DNA of 64,000 nucleotides from Siniperca chuatsi (taxonomy: Eukaryota > Chordata > Actinopteri > Centrarchiformes > Sinipercidae), in assembly GCF_020085105.1 (NCBI RefSeq), contig NC_058042.1:24312001-24376000 (forward strand). Direction: 5' to 3'. The stretch's first letter is position 1. Each line of letters starts with the position of its first letter. This document shows, piece after piece, positions 1,438 to 56,600 of this stretch. A program made the translations under genes and the position numbers. The notes beneath the pieces are model-generated. The model saw nothing but the letters and a program-made list of their open reading frames with translations. It searched no databases and was not told where the DNA came from.

Positions 1438-31967
<30,530 letters not shown>

Positions 31968-32850: not shown

Positions 32851-33029
32851 TTAAAAAGCTTTAGCAACATCGCTCAAGACTGCCTGTTTCAATGTGTGGC
32901 CTCGCTTCAGTTTCAAATCAAATGGATATTTCTCCCTGCAGCTTTTAACAAGTGGGCTGTGAAGAAGAAGAAACAACAGTCACTTATATCTGGAAGATTT
33001 TATTCCAAAGTTCACTATGGTAAAAAATG

Positions 33030-33320
33030 TATTGATTAGTTGGTCGACTTTTTAACCTGCAAGAATGTCATCAATCAATTCAATCATTGTTTCACTTATT
33101 CTCAAGCAAAAATGCCAAACTTCATGGCTGCGATGCTTTTCTTCGTCACTTATGATAGTAAACCAGACATATTTTGGATTTGGACTGTGGGTCGGATATA
33201 ATAATCAATCACCTTAGTCTTGGGGAAATTATAATCGGCATTTGTCACTATTTTCTGAGAATTTATATACAAACGATTATTAGATTAATCAAGAAAACAA
33301 TCATTATTTGCTGCCCCTTG
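33030..33320. mobile_element. hAT-like MITE, same family as 25098-25460
   Basis: It shares CAAGCAAAAATGCCAAAC and TTTGGATTTGGACTG with the 25098-25460 copy, and ends in AATCAAGAAAACAATCATTATTTGCTGCCC. It lies between trpm7 and the selenoprotein gene. The remaining sequence from 32850 to 34250 shows nothing I can assign. Confidence 0.6.
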
Positions 33321-34337
33321 TAAAAATGTTGCTGCCTTAAAATATCTCCACATTGAGGTCTGTCTATAACAACCCATTTTTTCATGCATGCAAACTTTTT
33401 CACAAGCTGTGAAAAGCCTATCACTGTTCAAAATGTTGCCATCACATTGAGCCTGTCATCAGCAGAGCAGCGTCGTCCCGCAGATTAAAGGGCTGGTAGA
33501 TTCTTGGATGTCTGCCTGCAGAAGGAGACAGTGGGTCTGGTGTTTGGACAGAGGCCTCGGATTCTTCAGTTGGACAGCAGCTGCTGGTATTTGAATCCAC
33601 ACACAATAACCTCTGTTCAGCTGCCTCTGGTCAAAGTGACACCTGTGCACCTGTGTGATAGTTGAGCTAAGGACACTGTGCTGGTTATCTCTTGGCTCTA
33701 AAAGGAGAAAGGGGTCTGACTGCAAGGTCAGCAGGAGGGATGTAGTGGTGGATATATTAACTTTTTGGGAGGGAGAATAAGAGTTTACCCTGAGCTTTTT
33801 GCTCTGCAATCTATTTTGTACAGTTTTTGTGAATTTGGCTTGAATTTTGCTGCCACTTTTCCCTCTTAACCTTAAAAGACAAGTTCATCCCCGTCCATAT
33901 GTACATTGCAAGAGTTTTTAGTTGCTGTAATAATTGTCCATAAAGAGATCCCTCACTAAAGCAATGTTAATGTGAGTGATGGAGGACAAAATCCACAGGC
34001 TTCATCCTGTGTAAAAAATATTCCAAATATTCTAATGTTCGGCTGAAGCCAACATGAGGCTTCAGCAGCCTGAGATGGTCAAACCAAGTTGGTCTCCTCT
34101 AAAGTCGGTTATTTTAATGTGAAATTCATTCATTACAGCTGTAATTATACTGAAACAAAAGTGTTGGTCAGGTAGTCAGTTCAAATGTATTTGTGATGCC
34201 TAAACTGGACCGACTGGCTACCCTCCCCCTGGGTGTGGTTTACTTTATAAGTACACTAATCATGACTCTGTATCTTATTCAGCTCATCTTCGGACTGAAC
34301 GGTTACAGCTCTGCATCTACTAACACAAGTCACAACC

Positions 34338-34872
34338 ATGGCTGCGGTCACCATTGAATACTGGTAAGTTTTTAATTTTCTGCTGATTAGTGGAGGACAG
34401 ACTGCAATAACTTCATGGGGGGGGGGATTAAGGAAGTAGAAATAAACTTCTGTAAACTTGAATTCATCATATTCATGTTGGCTAGAAATGCAGAAATAGC
34501 CTGACAGAATTTTTCTCTGCATAGAAACTGTCACACCCAGAAAGGATTTCTGCACACTTCAAAATAAGAAGTTGAATCAGAAGTTGAAGCCAAGCCAATA
34601 AGTAGGTTTATTAATGTGTCTATTCGTCGTGTTTTTTGTGTTACAGTAAAGGATGAAGTTACGCGTACCGCTACCAGGAAATGGCCGGTGTCGTCCGGCA
34701 GGTTCCCGGTGTGCAGGTGACGGGAGTCAAAGGGAGGCCAGGCAAGCTGCTTTTTCTTTCTCCACTCACACAGTCCAATATGGAGGCCCATTTCTGCCAC
34801 GAAAATATAATAATATAACTAAAATGATTGGAGTGAGAAACATAAAAAATATCCCTCTCATGGCAGATTATA

Positions 34873-34919
<47 letters not shown>

Positions 34920-35568
34920 GTTATTAGTTCAAATAACCTTTGACTTTTTAAAGACTTTTAAGTTCCAACCCTGTTTCTTTGTTCCAGCTGTTCACTTATC
35001 TCTTGTTATAAGTCATATATTTCCAAAAGACATTTTTGAGTGTTTATATGTCAAAATCCTTCCCTTTTCGTGATCTGGGGTGACTATAGCTAACCTGTCC
35101 ATTACATAAACCCACACTTGTTGGTCTAGTAGTTAGTATGTAAATAAATAATAATTGTGTGTTTGGATCAGTTGGGGGAAAAAAAACTTTGTTTATATTT
35201 TCAAAAGACGGTGGTTGAGGTCTGATTTATTCATTTCTCCCTCAACCTCCACTGCCTGATCTAAAAGCACAGATGATGGCTGTGGCTGTGAACGCCCCAA
35301 AATCCTGCTAACACCAAGAATTTATGTAGATTATCCAGAAGAAATAGGGTTTGGAAATTAGATCCCAGTGCTGTGTCAGAGTTAAAATAATGAATGAAGC
35401 AGCTACAGGTATTAACTGACTCGAAATAAAGGAATTTGTACCGTACAGTACATTCACTATCCGTAAGAATCCGCTAACCCAGTGCAGACTCTGCCTACTA
35501 CATCGACAACATAATCTACTGAGCAAAATCTGCATGTCATTGTGTTGGTGTTTGTTTTGTTTTTTTTC

Positions 35569-35600
<32 letters not shown>

Positions 35601-37547
35601 GTCTGTCTGTCTGTGTCACTCACTTAGCCGTAGTGCATCCCTACATCACTGCGCACCTTTACTGTCTAGCTCTTATTTTGACTCACCATGAGTAATTTTA
35701 TTTTTAGCATTTACTTTTCACTCTTGTTTTGTTCTTTGTTGTTTTTTCTTTCTGGCAGAAATGGTCTTCTGTAATCCAGTCACACAGTGTCAGTTTCCAT
35801 GCATATCAGCCTACATTTCGACCAGATACTACACCCAGGGATGTATCTATACTAACAATCAGTAAATATTAAAAATTCAAACAGAAACGTTCAGTTTGTG
35901 GTTGTAAAACACCATGAACCTGGGTTAACATTTCAAGCACTTAGATTAAGACAATAAACATGTAATTATTACTATTGTGAAAGTATAGCCTACCTGTATT
36001 TGTCCTTAGGTTTCCTTGACGGGAGTTTATAATAAAATGTACTAACTTTGCCTTTCAGCTGTGTCATTGACATACTGTACTGTGCCCATTCTGTCAGAGA
36101 AACCTGTTTTACTGGTTTTAATCCAAACACAGATCATATGTGTAAATACACATAATGGACTACTTTATATTCAATTGACATGGATGCATTTTCATTTTCG
36201 CTATCTTGTTTTTCACCCCCACAGACAGCTTTGAGGTGTCAGTGAATGGTCAACTGATCTACTCCAAGCTTAATACAGGAACGTTTCCTGTTCCTGAACA
36301 GGTTAGTGTGTTAGTGAGATAGATATCCACTATTTTTTTTATTACATATATTATATTATTTATTTATTATAAGTGACATCTTATTTACAGTATGGCATTA
36401 AAAATAACAGATGATCTTAGTTTTAATGGACTGCTGTGTAATTTGCTTATAACAGTTAAAAACTTAGGGTTAGGGTCATAATAGCATTTGCATCTCAAGT
36501 AATAATGTGATTTTTTACATCTAGAAAACTCTTTTAGTACAAAAACATAATGCAATAAGACAATACTTTCTATGAGTGTGTTCTTCACAGCAGTGAGTCA
36601 AGTTGTGGTTTGGGCTACACACCCACACAAAAACCTTACAGATAAGAAGACAGTTCCCGTTTTGGTATCACATACAGTAGTGTGAAAAAGTGTTTGCCCC
36701 CTTCCTGATTTCTTTTTTTTTTTTTGCATGTTTGTCACACTTAAATGTTTCAGATCATTAAACAAATTTAAATATTAGTCAAAGATAACACAAGTAAACA
36801 CAAAATGCAGTTTTTAAATGAAGGTTGTTATTATTAAGGGAAAACAAAATCCAAACCTACATGACCCTGTGTGAAATAGTGATTGCCCTCTAAACCTAAT
36901 AACTGGTTGGGCCACCCTTTCATTCAGGCAGAAAAATAAAGAAATAATAATAGAAATACCATGATTGAGTGTCTTTGGTCACCATTCGTGTTACTGACTT
37001 CACGGGACACACGTGAATAGAGAGAATTTATCAGAATATGTTTCTATGTTTAGAGTATACATCAGAATTTAATTCTATTTTATTTTATTTCCCAAAATGT
37101 CTACAGCCATGCTAGCAGCTCTGTGAGACTGTACTTAGGCACAGCGGTTCTTTGCACTAAATGCTAACGCCAGCATGCTAACGTGCTCACAATGACAACG
37201 CTTGCATACTGATGTCAAGAGTGTTCACCATCTTAGTTTAGAGTGTTAGCATGCTAACATTTACTAATTAGCACTAATCACAAAGTACAGCTGAGGCTCA
37301 TTTAGTCATAAGTATTGGACAAATAAAAAATGTGACCTGATGGTGGCGCTAGATGAAAAGTCAGAGGATCACCAAAGTGATTACGATTCATCCTGAGGAG
37401 ACCATAAATGTCTGTACCAAGTTTCATGGTGAATTTTGTGTTTCATGTGACCAGGTGGCAGAGATGGTGAAGCAGATTGTCCATGGAGAAAAAGTGGAGA
37501 AAACCTCCAAATTGATGCGTCTGAAGAGCAGATGCTCTTACCATTAG
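34338..37547 (+). CDS. SelW/MIEN1 (Rdx) family selenoprotein, in-frame UGA, four exons
   Basis: Exons 34338-34363, 34647-34741, 36225-36301 and 37455-37547 join into a 96-residue protein if the TGA at 34654-34656 is read as selenocysteine. The start MAAVTIEYCKG places Sec in the Cys-x2-Sec redox motif after the first beta strand. It is followed by FEVSVNGQLIYSKLNTGTFP, the hallmark of SelW, SelT, SelH and MIEN1/Rdx12 proteins, then EMVKQIV and GEKVEK..SRC, as near the MIEN1 C-terminus. These are small cytosolic thioredoxin-fold proteins thought to use Cys/Sec in thiol redox. Fish SelW2 is the closest match I know. Intron 2 has a GC donor (CCAG/GCAAGC); the others are GT. A SECIS-like hairpin follows. 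Unlike MIEN1 it ends SYH, with no prenylation box. A cysteine-for-Sec pseudogene is unlikely given clean splice phases. Confidence 0.85.
34654..34656 (+). other. In-frame UGA, predicted selenocysteine codon (residue 12)
   Basis: TGA falls at the second redox position of Cys-Lys-Gly-Sec, where SelW-family selenoproteins carry Sec and paralogues carry Cys. The downstream frame is conserved in family-specific positions, so it is not a stop. Confidence 0.85.
34871..34926 (+). repeat. (ATT)n microsatellite in selenoprotein intron 2
   Basis: About 17 ATT units lie 130 nt after the GC donor at 34742. A TC run (about 35568-35601) lies further on in the same intron. Confidence 0.9.
36665..36945 (+). 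repeat. Truncated dispersed DNA-transposon-like repeat
   Basis: GTGAAAAAGTGTTTGCCCCCTTCCTG, then TTGTCACACTTAAATGTTTCAG and a later GTGTGAAATAGTGATTGCCCTC form internally related blocks of a repeat I recall as very common in fish genomes. No coding frame. It sits in selenoprotein intron 3. Confidence 0.55.
37140..37440 (+). repeat. Dispersed teleost repeat, copy 2, 3'-truncated
   Basis: Same family as 14635-15012, ending abruptly after CCAAGTTTCATGG at about 37430. It lies in the last intron of the selenoprotein gene and ends only about 20-25 nt before the acceptor of exon 4 at 37455, so it borders the functional splice signal. Confidence 0.7.
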
Positions 37548-37820
37548 AAGATGGAGGATAAAATAACAGCTGTATTCACACTGCAAGAACAGTGGTTTGT
37601 TTTCTGTGGCTCAGACTGCATTCTCTCATGCACGCGTATCTGACTGCAAAAATCAATTCAAACATTGAAATATGACATTAAAACATTTAAAACAAATTAT
37701 AACTGTTGACCAAAATCAAAACGTTTAAGTCTCACCGTCGGCCATAGAAGAAGATCAGACCATATATCGTCTTCACTGTGAATACAGACAAGAAGAAGAT
37801 GAGAACAACTCTGAGGAGCC

Positions 37821-37905
37821 AGGCACTGATCTGCACTTCTGTTTATGAATGTTCACGCTGAAAAACATGTAGTGTGTGCACGATGCAAGTCTAGAAGCTT
37901 TTCAG
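37821..37905 (+). promoter_or_regulatory. SECIS element in the selenoprotein 3' UTR
   Basis: The SECIS core ATGA at 37845-37848 is followed by a 12-nt strand (37849-37860), an apical AAAAA at 37861-37865, the opposing strand 37870-37881 and GA at 37882-37883. The two 12-nt strands pair with about ten Watson-Crick or G-U pairs. ATGA, the 12-nt spacing to the apical adenines and the partner GA form the kink-turn quartet geometry of eukaryotic SECIS elements. Below it, CTTCT (37835) can pair with AGAAG (37893). It lies about 300 nt after the stop and before AATAAA at 37960-37965, as expected for recoding the upstream UGA. Confidence 0.75.
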
Positions 37906-37959
37906 CCGACTGGAGTCTGAGGAACTGCTCTCATCATGTCCGTCTGGCAAGTGCTCATA

Positions 37960-37965
37960 AATAAA
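37960..37965 (+). terminator. Poly(A) signal of the selenoprotein gene
   Basis: AATAAA lies about 415 nt downstream of the stop and about 75 nt beyond the SECIS core, placing the SECIS within the transcript. Confidence 0.6.
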
Positions 37966-38102
37966 ACGTCTCTGCAGCGGCATTTACTTAGGAATGGAAA
38001 ATCAGAAAATGTAACTCTATATCAAGCCACATATATATTTCATATTTAGCTTTTCTCTGTTTCGATAAAGTTTCAGGTCTGTGACATGATTGGGCACAAA
38101 CT

Positions 38103-38795
38103 TAAAGGAATAGTTTGCCATTTTTGGAAGTACTTTTATTAGCTCTTAGCTTGCCAAGAGTTAGCTAGATGAGAAGATCGATATCACTCTCATGTCTATT
38201 CATTAAAAATGAAGCTACAGCCATCAGCTGCTTAGCTTAGCTTAGCATAAAGACTGGAAACAGGGGGAAATAGTTAGTCTGGCACTGTCCTGTCAACAAA
38301 ATCTGCCTGCCAGCACCTCTAACGCTCACTAATTAACACGTTATATCTTGTTTGTTTCATCCGTACAACAACCCAAGTGTAAAAATTAGCTGTTTGATGG
38401 GGAGTTATGTGTTGGACTACTTCTTGGCCGGTACCAGTAACTTCCTGGAGTCTCCGCTACTTGTCCAGGCCAAGAAATAGTCCCGCACATAACGCCCCGG
38501 TAAACTGGCGAATTGTCATTTTTACACTTCAGTTTTTTGTATACGGATGAAACAAACAAGATATTACATGCTAATTAGTTAACTTTAGATGAGCTGGTAG
38601 GCAGGTTTTGTTACCTTTGGACAGAGTCAGCTAGCTCTTTCCCCCTGTTTTTAGTCTTCATGCTAAGCTAAGCTAACTGGCTGCGGGGCTGTAGCTTCAT
38701 ATTTCAGGTACAGACAAAGGAGTGGTATCAATCTTCTCATCTAACTCTAAGCAAGAAAGCGAATAAATGTATTTCCCAAAATGAACTAAATAACC
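38103..38795. mobile_element. Fold-back (palindromic) repeat, well-preserved copy
   Basis: Two inverted arms of about 340 bp meet near 38455-38475. The left arm contains GCTTAGCTTAGCATAAAGACTG and CTTCTTGGCC; the right arm contains their reverse complements CAGTC-like TAGTCTTCATGCTAAGCTAA and GGCCAAGAAATAG. Outer ends are AAAGGAATAGTTTG and CCCAAAATGAACTA. Non-coding. It lies just past the selenoprotein poly(A) signal. Confidence 0.75.
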
Positions 38796-39089
38796 ATGCT
38801 TTTAATCTTTGTGTAGTCAGATATAATATGCACTGCTAATTTTCAACAAATTTTAACAAATTGAGCTTTTTAATGTAGGACATTTTCAAAGCACCTTACA
38901 CCATTATTAAGGTGTGCAAGGTGACCACCCCATTCAACTTTTGTCTGTATTTTTAGATTGGCACCTGAATTACTCTTAAATACTCAGACTCATTATTTTC
39001 TAACATATCTATTTTATAGTCATACCTGCCATGTATGCCCTACTTTTTCAAATATACATGAGATATAAAATATAAATGGATTTTACCTG

Positions 39090-39295
39090 GCATGCCTCCC
39101 AATAAGGAGATCGTGGGTTTGGGTTCGATTCCCGGACCGGACCAACATCACACAATCTCTCTGGGTGGAGTCTGCATGTCCTCCCGTGTTACCGTGGGTT
39201 CTCTCCGAAAGACATGAGGTATGTTACTATACTGACATTTTAAGGCCCGGTTTAGATAGGCTCCAGTCACCCGCGACATTAAATCATCATTACAT
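39090..39295 (+). repeat. tRNA-related SINE or composite repeat fragment
   Basis: GGAGATCGTGGGTTTGGGTTCGATTCCCGGACCGG contains a tRNA B box. It is followed by CTGCATGTCCTCCCGTG, GGGTTCTCTCC and a GATAGGCTCCAGTCACCCGCGAC end, which are blocks of a common fish interspersed repeat. No complete unit is visible. Confidence 0.5.
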
Positions 39296-39759
39296 ATTTT
39301 AAACTTTTAAAACATGACTATTTTACTTTTTAAATGACTTACTGTACTGTTATTCTTTTGTTATCTAATTTGTCATCGATTCCAACAAAAAAACAATAAA
39401 TGTCCTGAAATGCAATAAAATAAAAACCAATGATCTGCTCTTTTCCGATGATTTTCACACTGCTTATTTAACAGTGCTAAGTTGTTCAGGAAAAGACGTA
39501 CTCAGATTTCTCTCTGTGTAGTGATCAGGGCGGACAGTACCGGCTTTGTGTCTGACCGACTGACAGGATCATCCACCTCAACAGAGATCAGCCAGACTTC
39601 CTGAACTGTCCCTCTGTTTCCACCAGATAAAATCAAATCATATCTGAGAAATCACCATGGGATGGAAATACAGAGCTTCCTGTTTTAACTATTTTATATA
39701 ATGTCAGTTAGGTTAATGTACTTAAAGACAATTAATATTTAATATTCTCATTAAATTTG

Positions 39760-39893
39760 AATGCAAAGTAACTACTAATGATACCTGCATAATAAATATA
39801 GTGGAGTAAAAAGTACAATATTTCCCTCTGAAATGTAGTGGAGTAGAAAAAGTAATATTGTGCTTTAGTACAGTACTTGAATGAGTGTACTTT
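39760..39893 (+). repeat. Fragment of the CAGTGGTG-type hAT-like repeat
   Basis: AATATAGTGGAGTAAAAAGTACAATATTTCCCTCTGAAATGTAGTGG and CAGTACTTGAATGAGTGTACTTTG match segments of the fuller copies at 41492-41915 and 59339-59874. Only the right part remains. Confidence 0.65.
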
Positions 39894-39969
39894 GTTACCT
39901 ATGTGTGAAAAAACTGAGCAGTAACCTCTGTGACTCGACCCGCTGTCTGTCTGTTGTTGTGCTGGTCAG

Positions 39970-40096
39970 CCCCGAGGTCACAGAGTTGAACCTGTTCCTC
40001 AGTACTCTTATGGAGGGTGTCACAGAAACACATCAGATCGACGAGGATGTGACAAAAGCTGCTGGTCTGGTCCTGAAAAACCCATGTGGAAATTGA
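39970..40096 (+). CDS. Unidentified terminal-exon-like reading frame
   Basis: A pyrimidine-rich tract and GTGCTGGTCAG acceptor precede a frame that reads PEVTELNLFLSTLMEGVTETHQ... and ends NPCGN then TGA. AATAAA follows at 40544-40549. This looks like the last exon of a small plus-strand gene, but I do not recognise the family and no upstream exon is secure. A candidate at 39523-39630 with its own acceptor (CTGTGTAG) reads IRADSTGFVSDRLTG and stops. The two need not belong together, and either could be spurious. Confidence 0.3.
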
Positions 40097-40559
40097 TGGC
40101 CCCCAGCCATACTGATCTCTGATGAGCAGCTGCTGTGTGTCCTGCCTATCATCATGTTAAAGGATGACACTGGCGATATTCTATAATAATTTTGTTATTG
40201 TCAACGATATCCTATGAAAAGACCAAAACCAACAATGTGACAGTCCAACTCTCAATACTTTCTCAGCCCCAAGCTCATTGGTTCCTACTGAAGACATGCA
40301 TCTTTAAAAACGGGTCATGTGTATATAGTTTAACTTTTTAAAGGCTAAACAATTTCCTAAAACAGCTGTAGTTTTTAGCAGAAGTTACTCAAACAGGAGC
40401 AAACAGTGTATATGTTGGGAACTGATTTCCACCACAGGTTTGGTGCGGAAGAGCAGAAGAGTGAATATGGGACTGACTCAGAATAAACTACAGTGCCCCT
40501 GTTCGTCATAACAAAGGACATCAATGGAACTCTGTGACACAGAAATAAACTGTATCAGG

Positions 40560-43500
40560 CTTTGGATACACAGACAATGCTTGTTAATAGGGTCAGTTCA
40601 CTGTTGATTTAGTCTTTTCAGGGGATTTATTGACAATAATAGAAATGAAGAATATCACCTTATCATTTAAAGGGACAGATATCATTCAGCTTATGGAATG
40701 ACACAATGAAAAGCAAATATATTGTGGCTCTAGATTGAGTTTTAAAGCAGTTACAGAGGACTGCTGTCCTTGTCCTTGCTGTCATGTCTCTGTACCATAT
40801 AACCCATAAACTAAACAGATGGTAATGATGGTAATAACAAGAGTCTGCCATTTGTGTTTCACTGGTAGAGTAAAACTCTATCAACAGGAAGCACCAGATA
40901 CCCACATCAGAAGCAGTCGTGGTTCTCTGTTTCACAATGTGAACTGAACTGAGTGTTGTGAGTGTAATGGAGAAAATACTCGACATGGGGGAGTGTGTGT
41001 GTGTGTGTGTGTGTGTGTTGAAACTACCCCCTATACTTTAGGAAATGCCCGGTTTCAGTGCTCCAACTAAATGAAAAGACCAACACATGGGCTCTTTGTC
41101 TGAGAGATGCAGGCACAATAGCCTCATTGCAGTGTCATGACACACATACACACACACAATGGCCTCATTTGCAACAGACAAGTTTGCGACTTTATCTGTC
41201 AGTTAAATATATATTATTTAACTATATTACTTTCTTATCTATGAAGCAGTTTGTTAAATGCAGGTGAGATATAAAGCTTTATTGATATTTACAGTAAACT
41301 TCATATTCTGTGAGTTTGGGGTTTTAACGTTCCTTCTATGTTTAGGTGATGAGTGCTTTTGCTTTCCTCTACATGGCAGGAAGTGGCCAAAGAGCGAAGG
41401 CTGTTTTTGCATTTGTACAAACCAGTTTTAGAGATAACCAACCCACGTTTGGAGGCTATCTTATACTGTACAGCATTATTTGGCTGCGTAACAGTGGTGA
41501 AAGAAATACTGAAAGATTTTACTTGAATAAAATATTTGCAGCAAAATATATTTAAAGTATCAAAGTGTTGGTGCATTATGTGGCAAAATGGCCTCTTTCA
41601 GATTGTTGTGTTATTGTTTTACTATTACTGATGCATTACTGTGCAAGCAGCACTTTACAATTGTAGCTGGTCAAAGTCAAGCTAGTATTAGCTATACACT
41701 TTTGGGTGGTTAAATCTATAACAGTGCATCATATTTTAGCTGATCATATGCTTTCTATGAAAAATCCTGATCTTCAAAGTAACTGTCAAATAAATGTAGT
41801 GGAGTTAAAAATTGCAATATCTTCCTCTGAAATGTGGCTAAGTAGAAGAATAAAGTTACGTATAATTATTTTGAAATTGTGTTTAAGGACAGTACTTGAT
41901 TAAATGTACTGTTCGCAAAACTGTAAAAGCAGCTTAATGGCCTGAAGACAAAATGTTCCCAGCACAGCTTATTTAGCAAAAATAATAAAATGGTAATTTG
42001 TTTATATTGCAATCCATTCAGCATACTAAACCTGTTTGCATGTGCGCTTCTTAAATAACTGTTGAAGATAATGTTAAGTGGAACCTCTCCACAGACGTTC
42101 ATATGTCAATATAAACCTGAATGCCTGGTAGACCACAGGGCGACAGAATCATCCATCAGATCCCTTCAGGTGAGAGATTGTGTCAGAAGGTGCTTTGAAG
42201 ATGATGGTGTGTGTTTCTGTAGCTGGTGTGCTGATTTTGTTGTGTATGGTGGAGCAAAGAAAGCTGATTTGGTTTGACAGCCTGCAGCTTTTTCTTTCTC
42301 TATTAAAGTGATGAAGGCGGTTCTTTTGCGGAGGCACAGCAACAGGTGATCTGGTTGGGCGACTCTGGTATTGTGGAGTCCAGCACTTTTCACTGGGTGG
42401 CAGCAAAAACATCGAACATCCACTCTGAACAAAATGTTGTTTTGTCAATCAAAAGCCTCATGTAACTTAGCAACAGTAAAAATGTTTACAGCCTGTAGAA
42501 TCATGTATGAATGTTTAATTGATTTAGTTTTGAGAGGTTTATTTAAAAAACTGCTGTGAACCTGTACGTCAATAATATACTGAGTATCGTATCAACTGCA
42601 AACATTGTAAATGAAATTAAATCTTTCAGTATACATCAACTGTGCAAATCACAAAACACCACGTGGATACAAAAAACTACACTTCATCTGCTGATGAGGA
42701 CCTTGAGATGTGGTTGAAAGCTTCAAGAAAAGCTAGTAAATGGACCTTGAGTTAAGATTATTTTGTCAATAGACCAAATAAAGTCAACATCTAAAGAAAC
42801 TATAAAACTGCCACTTGTGGAAACTGTAAATTTAATGAAAATGAAAATTTAATTAGATAAAAATTTAATTTGATTAAATTAAAAAAATGTAATCAAACTT
42901 TAAAAAGATTCAATAGAAAATTTCAGATCAAATTAAACATTAAATTAAAATAGATGTCATTAACAAATGTTTTAAATATTTTTTAAATTGTGTCACAAAT
43001 TTTATATATGAACAAAGTAAAATATTGGTGGGTTTTTTTGACCGAACAAATATTCAACCTTCGATGGGGTAATTCTACTATTTCTAATTCGTGCATCTTC
43101 TACATGTAATCCATCGATGGCTATGAAATCAGCTTTATTTTTTTAATTGAACTGTCAAACAAATATTGATCTGAAGAATGCATTTTTGGTTTGAGGAATC
43201 ATTTTCACAGACGGCTGAGATATTTCAAGTTCATCAGCACTGCAAAGTGTATTTTTCCTGTAGTGGAGAGTTGATCCAGCTCATCTCGGGTCTTTTTGGA
43301 TCATTTCAAATCTGTTGGTGAGCTGATTTGAGTCTTATTAACTGACCTGCCATCAAAATATGCTTTTAAAAGTTCATTTTAGCCTCAGGACTTGTGCATG
43401 CTGCCCCTGTTGTGTAACTTGAGCACTGTGACGGTCAGAGGAGCACAGAGACAGACGGCAGGTCATATCTTATTCATGACAATATGTCTGCATATAATAA

Positions 43501-44486: not shown

Positions 44487-45356
44487 CTAGCGCACCAGGA
44501 GGAAGGTGAGTCCAGCGAGGCCCACGCCCGCAGCAGCAAACAGCGCCGTCTTCATGGACGAGTCCTGACTCACCTCTCTGGCACTGCGGGAGAACTTACA
44601 GAACCCCTCCTATAAGAGGGAAAAAAAGAGAAATGTTAAGTTGAGAGCATGAAACTTTGTTTACTACCAAGAGAGAATATTTATCTGCTACTTTCAGGTT
44701 TTTTCCATATACTGTAGGTTTTACAAAAACAAAAGAGCAAGTATTAGCTGCCAAAACGACTTCCAACTAACAGTGGCTGAGCTGACGGCTGGTGGCAATT
44801 ATACCATATATTTTGGAAAGTATGTCAGAGTCACTGACAGCCCCGTGTTTCTCCACAAACACAGAAAAATATTTGCACTCCGAGGGTCCCGCTGATATCT
44901 GCAACTTTCCTGACAGCAAAGCAGTTCTTCAAAGTGCAAAAAATACGTCTCAACCTGAAGTTATAGAAAAATGTGCCAGTATGCCTAGCAATTATACAGA
45001 AATTTTTCAATTTGATTTTATTAATTATGAACCAGTTTTATCTTCTTCTGCTCTATTAGTAAGACCATACAGTAAAAACTGGGTATTCAGATGCTGTTCA
45101 GCCCCCCAGCAGCTGTATTTCAAACATGTTTTCAAAGTGAAGCCACACATTTGACCAGTGAGTGCACCTGCTCTCAGCTCCAGGTGTTTCGCTGTTTTAC
45201 AGCTGCTTGTTTTTCTAGTCATACCACACCGACTTTCAATATGGCTAATGCCAAATTCAACACACTGAAGCTTTGACTGTTACTACAAAGTCCATCTGGC
45301 AGAGCTGGTTACGTGTCTGTTGAAACCAGCTGCCAGCTGAAGAAAGGAGGGGTAAG

Positions 45357-45420
<64 letters not shown>

Positions 45421-46591
45421 GTGGGTGTTTGGGAGTGGGCCAGGGCAAACCCATTCACAAAAGCAGACATTCAACTGTAGTTGTGTTCGGTTTGATGGGG
45501 CTTCTGGGACCTTAGTCTACCCGGAGTCCATCGTAACTATCCCTGCATTTCCAGTTAAATAAGCCACACCAAGCAGGTTTAAAATTAGCTTTGTCCTTTT
45601 GATTTCACAAGTATGCAGTCCAATACTATCTGACAATGCAGATTTTGCCCAGCTGTTACAAAACACTCTGATAATCTAAAGCCCAACACCGTTTGATCAT
45701 GGCCCCGAATTTACATTGCTGAGGTTTGTCTTGTTGTAGCATACATTCCCCAGAATCTGGCCTATTGCTACTCCACAATTCATATAATCACAGCAGCCAC
45801 ATGAGACGTCCGAACCCTCTTCTCATCGGGAAACAGCAAAGTCAAAAAGGCTGCATCTAAACTAAACCATGGCCACGTTTACACATAGATCTGAATATAT
45901 ATACCCGAGCAAGAAGCAAACATGATCCTATCAAATGAGGTGGTTTTCAATGCCAAAAGCCTAAAAACATCACTTTAACTTTTACAGACTTTCTGGGATT
46001 TTTAAAATTATTATTTGTTTGTTTTTTACAGTTTCTTTAAACATGCTTGCCGCCCTAGAGACAATCAAAACACTTCTCTTATCTGCAATGTTTGTGTTGA
46101 GTCACTTTAGGAGCAGACATATTGTTACGACCTACCCATCCATCATTCTCCAGCAGCCAGTCTCTCTTCTCCTCTCCCAAGTAATCAGCTATGGTCTCTG
46201 CCAGTCCCCTGCAGTTTCCGGACCCCTGTCCCAGTTCCTGCCCAGGGTCCAGCCCCGGCTTCACGTCCTTCTGCTCCAGTAGCTGTCTGGCCAGCACCCC
46301 AGTAAAGGTGAAAAGGGACACTACCCTCCCCCAGTTCATGTGCCCGTCTCCCACCAGCTCCTCTATCACCTTCCTGAGGCCGGGGCAGGGGTCCGGCCCG
46401 CACTGCCTCAGGAAGGTGTGAGCGAGGGCGTGGAAGCGAGCCTGGTGCTGCGTCTCCATGTCCTGGGCCAGGCGCCTCATGGCAGCGGCTGACTCGCTGG
46501 GAGGTGGAGGGGCTGGCCGTGGGCTTGTGCAGCACAGGGACAGGTAGTCCTCTGCCAGGGCCAGGGTGTCTTTCCACAGCCCACACGACAT
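44487..46591 (-). CDS. bcl2l10: BCL2L10 (Nr-13/Boo-type) BCL-2 family apoptosis regulator
   Basis: Coding exons 46136-46591 and 44487-44609 join in phase 0 into 192 residues ending LLVR then TAG. The protein begins MSCGLWKDTLALAEDYL (BH4-like helix). It carries BH1 in HMNWGRVVSLFTFTGVLA and BH2 across the splice junction (WLLENDGW/EGFCKF), and ends in a hydrophobic anchor (ALFAAAGVGLAGLTFLLV). A clear BH3 is not obvious, as is usual for BCL2L10. Members sit on mitochondria and ER, bind BAX/BAK or BH3 proteins and act on IP3-receptor calcium release; whether this copy is pro- or anti-apoptotic cannot be read from sequence. The ATG is preceded by a CCCTGGTAG acceptor, so a non-coding exon lies upstream. 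It lies next to gnb5 on the same strand, an adjacency also seen in human. Confidence 0.95.
45361..45417 (+). repeat. (TG)n microsatellite in bcl2l10 intron
   Basis: A near-perfect TG run of about 57 nt between the two bcl2l10 coding exons. It is a convenient length-polymorphic marker, with no other significance seen. Confidence 0.9.
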
Positions 46592-46739
46592 TTTCTACCA
46601 GGGGGAAAGAAAAAAAAAAAAAAGACAATTCGCTCAACTAAATAAATGAAGAGATCCTGCTGTGAGCACCAAATCTTTGTACTGCTATGAAGAACCACAA
46701 ATATGGTTTGTTGATTTGACAGAAACAAAGAGCAGCCAG

Positions 46740-51349: not shown

Positions 51350-53591
51350 CTGCATGAGAGAAGTGTGATGGGTTAAAACGTAAAACATGTTTAAGCATTT
51401 TTAAGCATAAGTTACAAGCTCAAGAGCCTCAACATATGACACCCCTTTTAGTCTAAAAAAGCAAATGTAAATCAGAATGCAGGCCTGTTGCATACTTGAA
51501 TGGAGGGTTCCTGCTTGTATTATGCTGTGATGTGATTTTACGCATGTGATGTGGTTTTATGCATGAAAAAAGTTATAAACAAATAAGAAAAAATTAACAA
51601 CAGCTAAATGGTAAAGTCAAGCTGAGTAGGGAAACTCCTGCTCACCCGTAAGGTGTTGTCCCAGGAGGCCGAGCAGAGCGCCGTGCCATCAGGTGACACT
51701 CTGACCCTACTGACACGGTTCTCATGGCCAAACAGGACCGAGACGCGACTTCCCTTCAAAACGTCCCACACATTGATGGTGTAGTCATTGTAACCAGCGA
51801 AAAGCAGGCGACCTGGGAGTGTGAGGAGGCGAGAGAGAGAAGGAGGAAGTCGGGAATTTGGAACAAGGGGAATTTGGAACAAGGGGAAGTAGAGACAGAC
51901 AAAGGAGTGGTAGAAATTGTGAGACAGAGATCTAATTTTTCCTTGAACACTAAAAATTGTTTCATGTATAATACTGTATTTAGATGCAGATGAGATCACA
52001 GAAGAAACTGAAAGTGTGTTTTTGTTTTATCTCAAAAACCAAGTCTGGCATTTTTGGAACCCTTTCTCAAGTCAAGTCAACATTTATTGATCACATTTGA
52101 TTCAACTTAAAAGTGCTTTACAAACTCCTTACCACTCAGAGAGAAGTCCACAGTGGAAGCACCAAATAAGATGCTGTCCTTCTGGTAGACGGCTACCTCA
52201 CGGTCAGCTCGCAGATCATAGAAACGGCACTGAGGAACACCAATAAACCAATAAACATGCAACAACAGACACAAACAGACGGTCATTTTAGCCCGTGAAT
52301 GATGATGCAACCAAAGGAATGGCATCAAGACATGTTTAGGAACCCTGAATGATGATATTTGTATGTACAGTACATGTATTTGTTTCTGTTTGTTTAGGGT
52401 GTTATTCTGTTACTAAGATCGCTGAGTTCACCCCAACATCAAAGTGACTCAGAGTGAGTCCAATATATCAGTTCACTTTCTACACATGCACTGAGGAGGT
52501 CAGTCTAACAATCCTGCAGACACATCGCAACAAACTGATAGGAAGGTCATATGACGTGACTCACTGTGGCATCGTCAGAAGCAGAAGCAAATGCATCTCC
52601 ACTGGGGTAGTACCTGAGCACACATGGCCGTGGGTAGAATTAGATATATTGCAGCACCAATGAGCTTTCTATGAAATAAGTGAGTAATTCTGCTGCTTGA
52701 ACTGCATCATAGGGCTGAAACTTGGTCTTGGTCTTAGTCTAATACAGTAGATGAACAAATTTATGAAATCTGTTCCCTTTTGTACAACTCAACATCTCAG
52801 TTTTCTCAACACTTACAGATTCTTTGACCCAATGTCTCTTCTCCTTTTATGGATATTTTGCACACTCATCCATGAAAAGCTCAAATGTGAACATGCAACA
52901 AAAGCATATCACTTTTTAAAAGCTTGCGATGAAATAAAGCACAACAATATTGCTTGAGATTTTGCGTAATTTGCCTAAAATAACTCATTAGTTGGTCCCA
53001 AATCTTTTTCCACAAACCCAGACAACTGGAAAGCTAACTAAGTTAGCTTTCCAGTTAGCTAAGTTAGTTTAAATTAGCTAAGTTAGTTTAGATCAGATGC
53101 AGGTTCCATTTTTTAGACCCTAAGGGTCTCCTCATCCAGTTTTACCAAATTGAAAACATGATCTACAGTAAGGGCACTAAAGTCTCTCATTCATTAAAGA
53201 CAAAAAGGGTAGGAAAGTGCCTCAGATGTCGTCTATGACGCATGTGTGTAGACATTTGTGGGTAAAATGCGTTTGTTCATTATGCATTTTGATGATCTAG
53301 GATGGAATTTAATCATTTAGGTTTCCATTTGTAATAGTAGTAGCAGAAGTAGAAATACCAGTATAACTACCACTTCTGCTCTTCCTCTCAGTGCGTCAGT
53401 CCTCTGTCGAGTAAATTCTCCCACTTGCTTAACAAGAAAGACACTGTGAGACTTTTGTTTTTATCAAAGAGCTGGACTCACTTTACGCAGTTGATGTCAG
53501 ACTCGTGGCTCTCAAAAGACTGAATGTTCTGTCCAGAGCGCATGTCCCACACGTTGGCCTTCTTATCACAGCCCTGATAACACACATGCAA

Positions 53592-53659
<68 letters not shown>

Positions 53660-56600
53660 ACACACAGTTACAGGTTTTGCCACAACCACATGAAACAGAC
53701 AGATACACACACACTATTTCTCTCACCCCAGAGACAAAAGTGTTTCCAGTCTCAGATGGGGCGAGGTCCAGGGACAAGACATCAGCTGTGTGGCCATGGA
53801 AACTCTGCAGCAGCTGCCCGCTCTCCACGTCCCACAGGGCACATGAGCCGTCACCGCTGGAAGTCAGGATCTAACAGACATCCATACATACACATGGACA
53901 AATGCACCACACATGTTCAACATACACACAAAAACACAAAGACAAAACAAACAACACTATGAAAACATAAAGCTTATTTTACTCCAAACTTTACTGGAGC
54001 AACGGCAAGACACACATATTTTGTAACATTTTCGGAACCCAAAAGAAGTAAACTTCATCTCATCAAGGAAGCTCTTTTTAAAACACTGTATTAGGATGTA
54101 TTGAGGGAACTGTGGATACCAACCTACAGCTTAAAAACTGTGCAAACACTGGCAGCCTTATTACGCCAGTGAACCACACACTGTAGGAACTAGGCAGGAG
54201 GAAGTGCCATCACAGAGGGACTTTGATAGGTAAATTCTGTTGGAAACCCCACAATGATTTGGCTAAAGGGTGAAACTAGGTTGAATTGGGTTTAATATGG
54301 CACTGCTGGTGGTCATGGAAAGAAAGAATATGGATTAAAAGGTGATGCTAAAAAATGTATGTCAAATTATTTCAGAGAAACTGTAAACAAATGTACTGTT
54401 CATTCTATAAAAAATAAAACTGCAGGATTTGGTTGATTCTAGAGAATTGAAAGCATATAAATGTTGGTTATTTTTGTAGTTATCTGTTCTCTACTTTATA
54501 TGTGACTTCAACTACAGGTTTTGCTTTCATTTCTCAATTTTAACACTTAAAACTGAGAAATGAAACAGCCAAAAATAAACATGGAATGATTGACTTGCTG
54601 GAATGATAGTTGAAGGGAAAAGTCTAAGTTTATTGAAATTACATTTCAGTGCATCTCACCAGTGACTTAAAATAAACAGAACCATAACCAGAATAATCAT
54701 CAACATCTGCTTTCTAAAGTCTGTCTGTCAGCGTGGACAGACTATAGTGAAATGCTGTAGAGCTCTATTCTGCCATATGACTAAATCTAATGGCACCATG
54801 AGTGTAGCTGTTGTCCTCTATAAGCACATACCTACAGATGCATTCACAGGGTAGACACACACACATCTGACAAAAGCCAAAGGTCAGCACCTCCCCACTA
54901 ATACAGAAACAGTGCACAGTGTGCACTGATGTTATAGTGAACAGCTGTAACAAAAGAGTTTCCCCTCGGGGATCAATAAAGTATTTCTGATTCTGATTCT
55001 GAAAACACCCAGTGTGCATCATGTATCCACACACAAACAAGCACACGAAATGCCAAAATGTCAGCGATTCCTCTGATGAAAACAGATTATGGGCACTTAG
55101 ACACATGCAGACATCAGAGATCCCTGCTGGCTGGTGGATTAGAGAGCTCCTGCTGGATGACCTCAGGCACAAAAACAGACCACATCCTGCCTGCACTGAG
55201 AGGTAGCTCCAGTTTCAACATGAATGCAATTATCAGTAAGCCACAGTTACTGACACATACACACACATAGATAGGAACTTCACTGATCTAACAAAGAACC
55301 TTTGCATCAGTCTGACTTTGCTTACCACCACCTGCATGTTACCATATATTAAATATGTGGTTCATTAAATTACCCAGTGATCCCACATGTAAATGTCTTT
55401 AACGAGAAAGCCTCACAACTCATAACTCACACGTCAGCACATCATAAATATCAAAACACACCAACTGAAAGCCAGTGCACTACTTAAATGTTTCTCTCAG
55501 TTGGACACACACACACACACACCGAGATACAACAACACAAGACTGTATGTCATCCTAACTCTCCTGTTGGCAGACTTTTAAGGCTGCTTGAAAATGTGGA
55601 ACCAGTCTTGAATAATGATGAATAATAAACACACTTTCTGAGCCCTCAATGTAGTAAACAGCTTTGTGCTCCAAGGTCTATTTTCATAGTATGAATGCTT
55701 GTGTGCGTGCATGTGTCTTTGTGTGTGAGATGCAGTACTGTATGAGAGAGAGATGTGTGAGAGACATATGTGTGTGCGTGTTAGAGAGAAAGACAGGGAG
55801 AACACATGCATATGTGTGTCTATGTGTTAAATGTTCTGCCCTCAGGTCAGCGTGCTCCACTCTTTCCTAGATAAAAGCCACTCAGTGTCTATTAATACAC
55901 CCAGGATAGAGGACCATTACCCCCCCCGTCTCGTCTCTTTTCTGCCCCCTCCTCAGCCCTGCCATCCATCTCCTCTTCCTCCCTGTCCTCTGTCATTGAT
56001 GCTCCTCTGCCTTGCTAAGGGCCAGAGTGGGGTAAATTATTAAAGCCATTACCTTCATGTTCTCCTTTTGAGTTTGTCCCCTACTTTCATTCTTTCCTAT
56101 TGGGGAGTTGCAGGTACAGCCAACAAAAAAAGTCTAGTTGATGCTGACTCATTAACCTTCAATAGACATATAGTACATCTATGCAAAAAACATGATAACT
56201 AAAGTACAATATTTTAAATAAATGTGTAAAATCTAAATATATTAGTCATATTTTTACAGTCACATTTACTAGATGGTTAATGGGGAGACAACAATAAACA
56301 ACTGGCTCGTTGGTCTAGGGGTATGATTCTCGCTTCGGGTGCAAGAGGTCCCGGGTTCAAATCCCGCTACGCTTAACAAAAATTGTTAATAGGAAGGCTT
56401 TACTGGTTAACATGATGTTGCTGAAGCCCATTAATTGTACAGACTGTAAACTGCATCATGGCAAACCATAAATATAGCGTTGATATACTCCATATGTTCA
56501 AGGGAAACTAGCAAGATAGTCCAGCTATGGCAAGCGTTCCTTTAAATTTGCAAAATTGTTAATAGCAGTCAGCAGCTGCTTCATCTCATGGAAGACCCCC

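Follow-up and report, generated by a model that had tools for sequence, protein, structure and literature searches.

Results

The stretch of DNA analysed here (the window, 64 kb) corresponds to C1:24312001-24376000 of the 718.8-Mb, 65-contig genome of Siniperca chuatsi and carries, in order, trpm7, the gene that is the subject of this report, bcl2l10 and, beyond it, gnb5. Specifically, seven of the ten window ORFs compared with Pfam are matched, and the plus strand to the left of the gene encodes the TRPM parts LSDAT, TRPM tetramerisation and alpha-kinase. An ORF at 16452-16769 has no Pfam match, and its best structures are those of TRPM7 (6.1e-39), in a set from which TRPM6 structures may be absent. 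To the right, the minus-strand ORF at 46082-46594 is matched best by BCL2-like 10 (1.6e-44); structure matches thus flank the gene on both sides as in the original prediction, which had placed it between trpm7 and bcl2l10. At 51607-52026 on the minus strand, the top rows are a 530-residue G-beta-1 entry, matched in two stretches, and a WD-40 repeat protein; G-beta-5 stands third (3.7e-38) and leads the other G-beta entries matched in a single stretch, which is why this ORF is assigned to gnb5.

Between these neighbours, four plus-strand exons of 26, 95, 77 and 93 nt, with end phases 2, 1 and 0, join into 291 nt, that is, 96 codons and a TAG stop. Coding exon 1 (34338-34363) has its ATG within ACAACCATGG and, like exon 1 of the paralogue described below, closes in phase 2, followed by gtaagt; exon 2 (34647-34741) carries the proposed selenocysteine (Sec) codon and ends in phase 1 before gcaagc; exon 3 (36225-36301) holds the FEVSVNGQLIYSKL block and ends in phase 0 before gttagt; and exon 4 (37455-37547) encodes the C-terminus RCSYH and includes the stop (37545-37547). 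The only internal stop of the frame is the TGA at codon 12 (34654-34656, plus strand), within Y-C-K-G-U, where the UGA is the proposed selenocysteine of C-K-G-U and where a Sec-blind gene caller would truncate the gene at residue 11. The predicted product reads MAAVTIEYCKGUSYAYRYQEMAGVVRQVPGVQVTGVKGRPDSFEVSVNGQLIYSKLNTGTFPVPEQVAEMVKQIVHGEKVEKTSKLMRLKSRCSYH. A TATA-like TATAAGT (34246-34252, plus strand) about 90 nt 5' of the ATG has a possible promoter role, and a poly(A) signal, AATAAA (37960-37965, plus strand), is found close to where the 3' UTR ends. All of the corresponding elements of the original prediction, namely four exons with matching splice phases, an in-frame TGA at the Sec position of Cys-x2-Sec, a family-diagnostic block (here in exon 3) and a poly(A) signal, are present.

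Absent from that description is the donor of intron 2. Introns 1 and 3 are GT-AG and intron 2 is GC-AG, with a donor at 34742-34743 that reads CCAG/GCAAGC (slash, splice site) and that is GT at the same site in the paralogue. Working GC donors usually sit in a CAG/GCAAG context. Use of an alternative GT donor inside exon 2 (gtgcag/gtgacg) removes 25 nt, counted by eye, and destroys the frame, and for this reason the GC donor is retained in the gene model.

The 3' UTR contains a candidate SECIS element (37836-37897, plus strand), delineated by a pattern scan and a fold. It comprises a lower helix I of six pairs (37836-37841/37892-37897), a quartet formed by ATGA (37845-37848) and its partner GA (37882-37883), a helix II of 11 positions with one mismatch (37850-37860/37870-37880) and a 9-nt apical loop, AAAAACATG (37861-37869), with AAAA at its start. 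The stop codon and the quartet are 297 nt apart, which agrees with the SECIS-like hairpin anticipated some 300 nt past the stop. The strict SECIS pattern matches once on the plus strand and nowhere on the minus strand of the window, and twice in 307,802 strand-bases covering the window and stretches L006-L014 of contig C21, the two matches falling one each in the 3' UTRs of the gene and its paralogue. Dinucleotide shuffles of the 423-nt window 3' UTR carry the pattern in 4 of 2000 cases in a first run and 1 of 2000 in a second; for the paralogue's UTR the figure is 1 of 2000 shuffles.

The pattern was composed after the window element had appeared in a fold, so the independent check is provided by the paralogue, whose element is laid out alike, 214 nt beyond the paralogue's stop, and was found initially with slightly wider limits and again with those of the window scan. 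Looser limits (two mismatches, a four-pair lower helix) give an extra, uncounted match at L006 5490 that overlaps the paralogue's UTR region. The stability of the hairpins does not exceed that of shuffles (z -0.18 for the window, -0.98 for the paralogue). Rfam returns no match in 33000-41000 at E up to 1, two matches in 37500-38100 at E up to 10 and two in the paralogue UTR, none of these four being a SECIS; its silence on the window element says little, because it misses the paralogue's element too. With an in-frame UGA at the redox Cys position and, by our own pattern scan, a candidate SECIS in the 3' UTR, the locus carries two features that characterize a eukaryotic selenoprotein gene.

The protein belongs to the Rdx/SelT-SelW-SelH family, with profile scores that exceed the curated cut-offs both for Pfam Rdx PF10262 (1e-15, 58.1 bits against 22.6, residues 4-72) and for NCBIfam TIGR02174 (6.1e-17, 61.7 bits against 34.2). 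In a search of solved structures at E up to 1 it matches five distinct sequences. The closest is human MIEN1 (PDB 2ljk; residues 4-84, 7e-16, 61.4 bits), followed by Atu0228 (7.4e-05), the selenoprotein W-related protein 2p0g (0.04), mouse SelW (PDB 2npb; 0.17, 15.4 bits), which is far behind MIEN1, and SAV_2001 (0.55). These scores and an intron comparison with SelW2 place the protein nearer SelW2/MIEN1 than SelW1. The protein lacks what defines MIEN1/Rdx12 itself, namely Cys where Sec would stand and a CaaX box at the C-terminus, the gene having a UGA codon and a CSYH end.

When the whole genome is searched with the product of the window gene, four rows result: one each for exons 2, 3 and 4 of that gene, the exon 2 row containing one TGA, and one for the third exon of a gene located on contig C21 (E 0.031, 42% identity); exon 1 is too short for a match of its own. 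The C21 gene (C21:5507185-5508935; L006 3486-5236) is a second, SelW2a-like SelW2 gene, with four exons of 29, 98, 77 and 84 nt, a 95-codon frame and a UGA at codon 13. It resembles the window gene in its four exons, in the positions and phases (2-1-0) of all three introns, in the 77-nt length of exon 3, in its SECIS layout and in a UGA at the corresponding codon. The UGA of the window gene also lines up with the second Cys in the CxxC motif of MIEN1. The two genes differ in that the C21 copy has GT in intron 2 and a C-terminal CaaX motif, CVIM, whereas the window copy has GC and CSYH. The proteins are identical at 38 of 93 aligned residues, and differences by codon position number 45, 32 and 48 of 93. 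The dN/dS values are 0.60/1.16 (NG86) and 0.71/0.78 (YN00); they depend on the method and are weak evidence of constraint, which is slight or hard to measure at such a distance.

Further queries of the whole genome bear on how many relatives it holds. The MIEN1 query picks up two loci, the window gene and its C21 paralogue, and no others; the mouse SelW query returns none, a result that is suggestive at most, being without a SelW1 positive control. A Pfam Rdx search gives a single row, window exon 3, and misses the C21 gene, so that exon-by-exon searches can evidently overlook members of the family. A scan of genome contigs yielded no relative: its pattern matched 76 stretches, of which none was confirmed. 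Around the C21 gene, six of six ORFs, chosen by eye among those listed, are matched (TNFR, AIG1, HCO3 transporter, HMG box, Sgf11 and ubiquitin). The last four we take to be slc4a1, ubtf, atxn7l3 and tmub2, which are presumably neighbours on human chromosome 17. MIEN1 is located in human 17q12-21 (PMC3527542).

A tree placement had been suggested alongside the original prediction. In a tree of seven rows and 85 of 102 columns, which is too small for a firm placement, the window gene pairs with its C21 paralogue at a support of 44/34, and the pair joins MIEN1 (77/93). A grouping of the window gene with mouse SelW is unrejected (p-AU 0.211), as are window plus MIEN1 (0.229) and C21 plus MIEN1 (0.419). 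Of the four vertebrate rows, that of the window gene is on the longest branch (0.92, compared with 0.39, 0.41 and 0.65).

A simulation of neutral decay, with substitutions only, at 0.58 per site in 20,000 frames started from the C21 frame, leaves 3.4% of frames open and 0.2% that also retain the ATG and the UGA; retention of the 12 splice-site bases contributes a further factor of 0.002. The window gene retains 11 of these 12 bases, the GC donor being the one change. At 0.3 per site the corresponding figures are 8.8%, 1.6% and a factor of 0.033, and simulations started from the window frame give somewhat lower figures. Because simulated frames are so readily lost, it is unlikely that the gene has long been decaying as a pseudogene, an argument that reaches long decay and not recent loss.

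Discussion

According to a 2012 survey of selenoproteins (Mariotti et al. 2012, PMC3316567), SelW2 occurs as a selenoprotein in bony fishes, frog and elephant shark, and Rdx12 is the related protein with Cys; Percomorpha carry an additional divergent copy, SelW2c, on another chromosome and have lost SelW1. The window gene fits this description: it is a divergent SelW2-like selenoprotein gene, another SelW2 gene sits on a different contig, C21, and the MIEN1 and mouse SelW queries together are in line with the Percomorph set of SelW2 plus SelW2c without SelW1. We therefore regard it as very probably a gene of the SelW2 subfamily (MIEN1/Rdx12-like), and most likely the Percomorph SelW2c. The letter 'c' we infer from the match to the published description; as a label, "SelW2c" also denotes a planarian gene in PMC3828610. 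In pufferfish, the survey reports that SelW2c has Arg for Sec and that its SECIS is lost or degenerate, whereas the UGA and the SECIS are intact in the window gene. The original prediction of a divergent SelW2/MIEN1-like selenoprotein gene is upheld by family scores, paralogue and SECIS pattern alike, and its suggestion of a distinct paralogue was right, yet the gene fits a kind already described in 2012. That it appears functional, as also proposed, is suggested by a frame, splice sites and a SECIS that are all intact. Among the matches listed by literature searches covering few subscription journals, on selenoprotein W with trpm7 or bcl2l10 and on SelW2 with percomorph, titles and the openings of abstracts gave no description of this locus; a search on selenoprotein W with CAAX and selenocysteine listed a single review, on MIEN1. 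The new details are the introns and what they say about origin, the GC donor in intron 2 and the CSYH C-terminus, and a complete gene model with its SECIS is added for a little-studied fish selenoprotein.

The same survey leaves two origins possible for SelW2c, a changed SelW2a/b or a changed SelW1, and the introns that the window gene has in common with SelW2 are relevant to this undecided point. That the window gene is a fast-evolving SelW1 and no copy of SelW2 would be compatible with the empty mouse SelW query (which lacked a positive control) and with the unrejected mouse SelW grouping in the tree. SelW1 also shares the Rdx/SelT/SelW/SelH family and, according to PMC3316567, the CxxU motif, and yet mouse SelW scores only 15.4 bits, compared with 61.4 for MIEN1. 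Further evidence on the side of SelW2 comes from the Cys that aligns at the CaaX position and from the three intron positions and phases and the 77-nt exon 3, all matching the C21 gene; the introns favour a SelW2 origin, but alone they are insufficient against SelW1, because the comparison covers SelW2 only. Taken together, we consider a SelW1 origin quite unlikely.

Somewhat less probable still is a SelW2c recently disabled in this species. The GC donor, the low identity to the C21 protein and a YN00 dN/dS near 0.9 would all suit such a pseudogene, but the reading frame, the start codon, the SECIS and the poly(A) signal are all intact, the splice sites are consensus save for the GC donor, whose context is typical of functional GC donors, and an open frame is unlikely after long neutral drift. 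A chance assembly of exon-like pieces that form no gene can practically be dismissed: three of the four exons are matched separately when the genome is searched with the gene's own product, the fourth row of that search leads to another gene built in the same way, and the family scores contradict it as well.

For a SelW2c gene derived from SelW2, the following model can be proposed. The gene would have originated as a DNA-level copy of SelW2 that kept its introns and then diverged quickly. Its four exons would be transcribed and spliced, and the ribosome, aided by the SECIS in the 3' UTR, would read the UGA at codon 12 as selenocysteine to yield a thioredoxin-like protein of 96 residues, carrying C-x-x-U as its redox motif and having a presumed redox activity. 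The Cys fourth from the end aligns at the CaaX position but is followed by SYH, and CSYH is not a usual CaaX box. MIEN1, of the same family and with Cys at the place of Sec, adopts a thioredoxin-like fold; its disulfide potential is -225 mV and its prenylation motif is CVIL (PMC3527542). Set against this CVIL and the CVIM of the C21 protein, the CSYH end of the window protein suggests that the C-terminal lipidation signal kept by the paralogue has apparently been lost, and with it lipid anchoring, so that the window protein would probably work as an untethered redox protein; the C21 protein, given its CVIM end, may be a lipid-anchored selenoprotein. Whether SelW2c is thus a SelW2 without a membrane anchor, and this fish holds one anchored (C21) and one soluble (window) redox selenoprotein, we judge to be an evenly balanced question, and the contrast between the C-termini offers a hypothesis, open to testing, for the persistence of two SelW2 copies.

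Repetitive DNA is also present in the window. About 200 nt beyond the gene's poly(A) signal lies a fold-back element (38163-38746) that looks like a MITE-type element. Its four nested pairs of inverted-repeat arms measure 48-71 nt and are 79-86% complementary, and there is a fifth, short pair. A minus-strand ORF at 3-350 with a BED zinc finger (3.3e-4) is probably a DNA transposon fragment, and long CA/GT microsatellite runs yield open frames at 53495-53959, 45286-45516 and 26203-26779.
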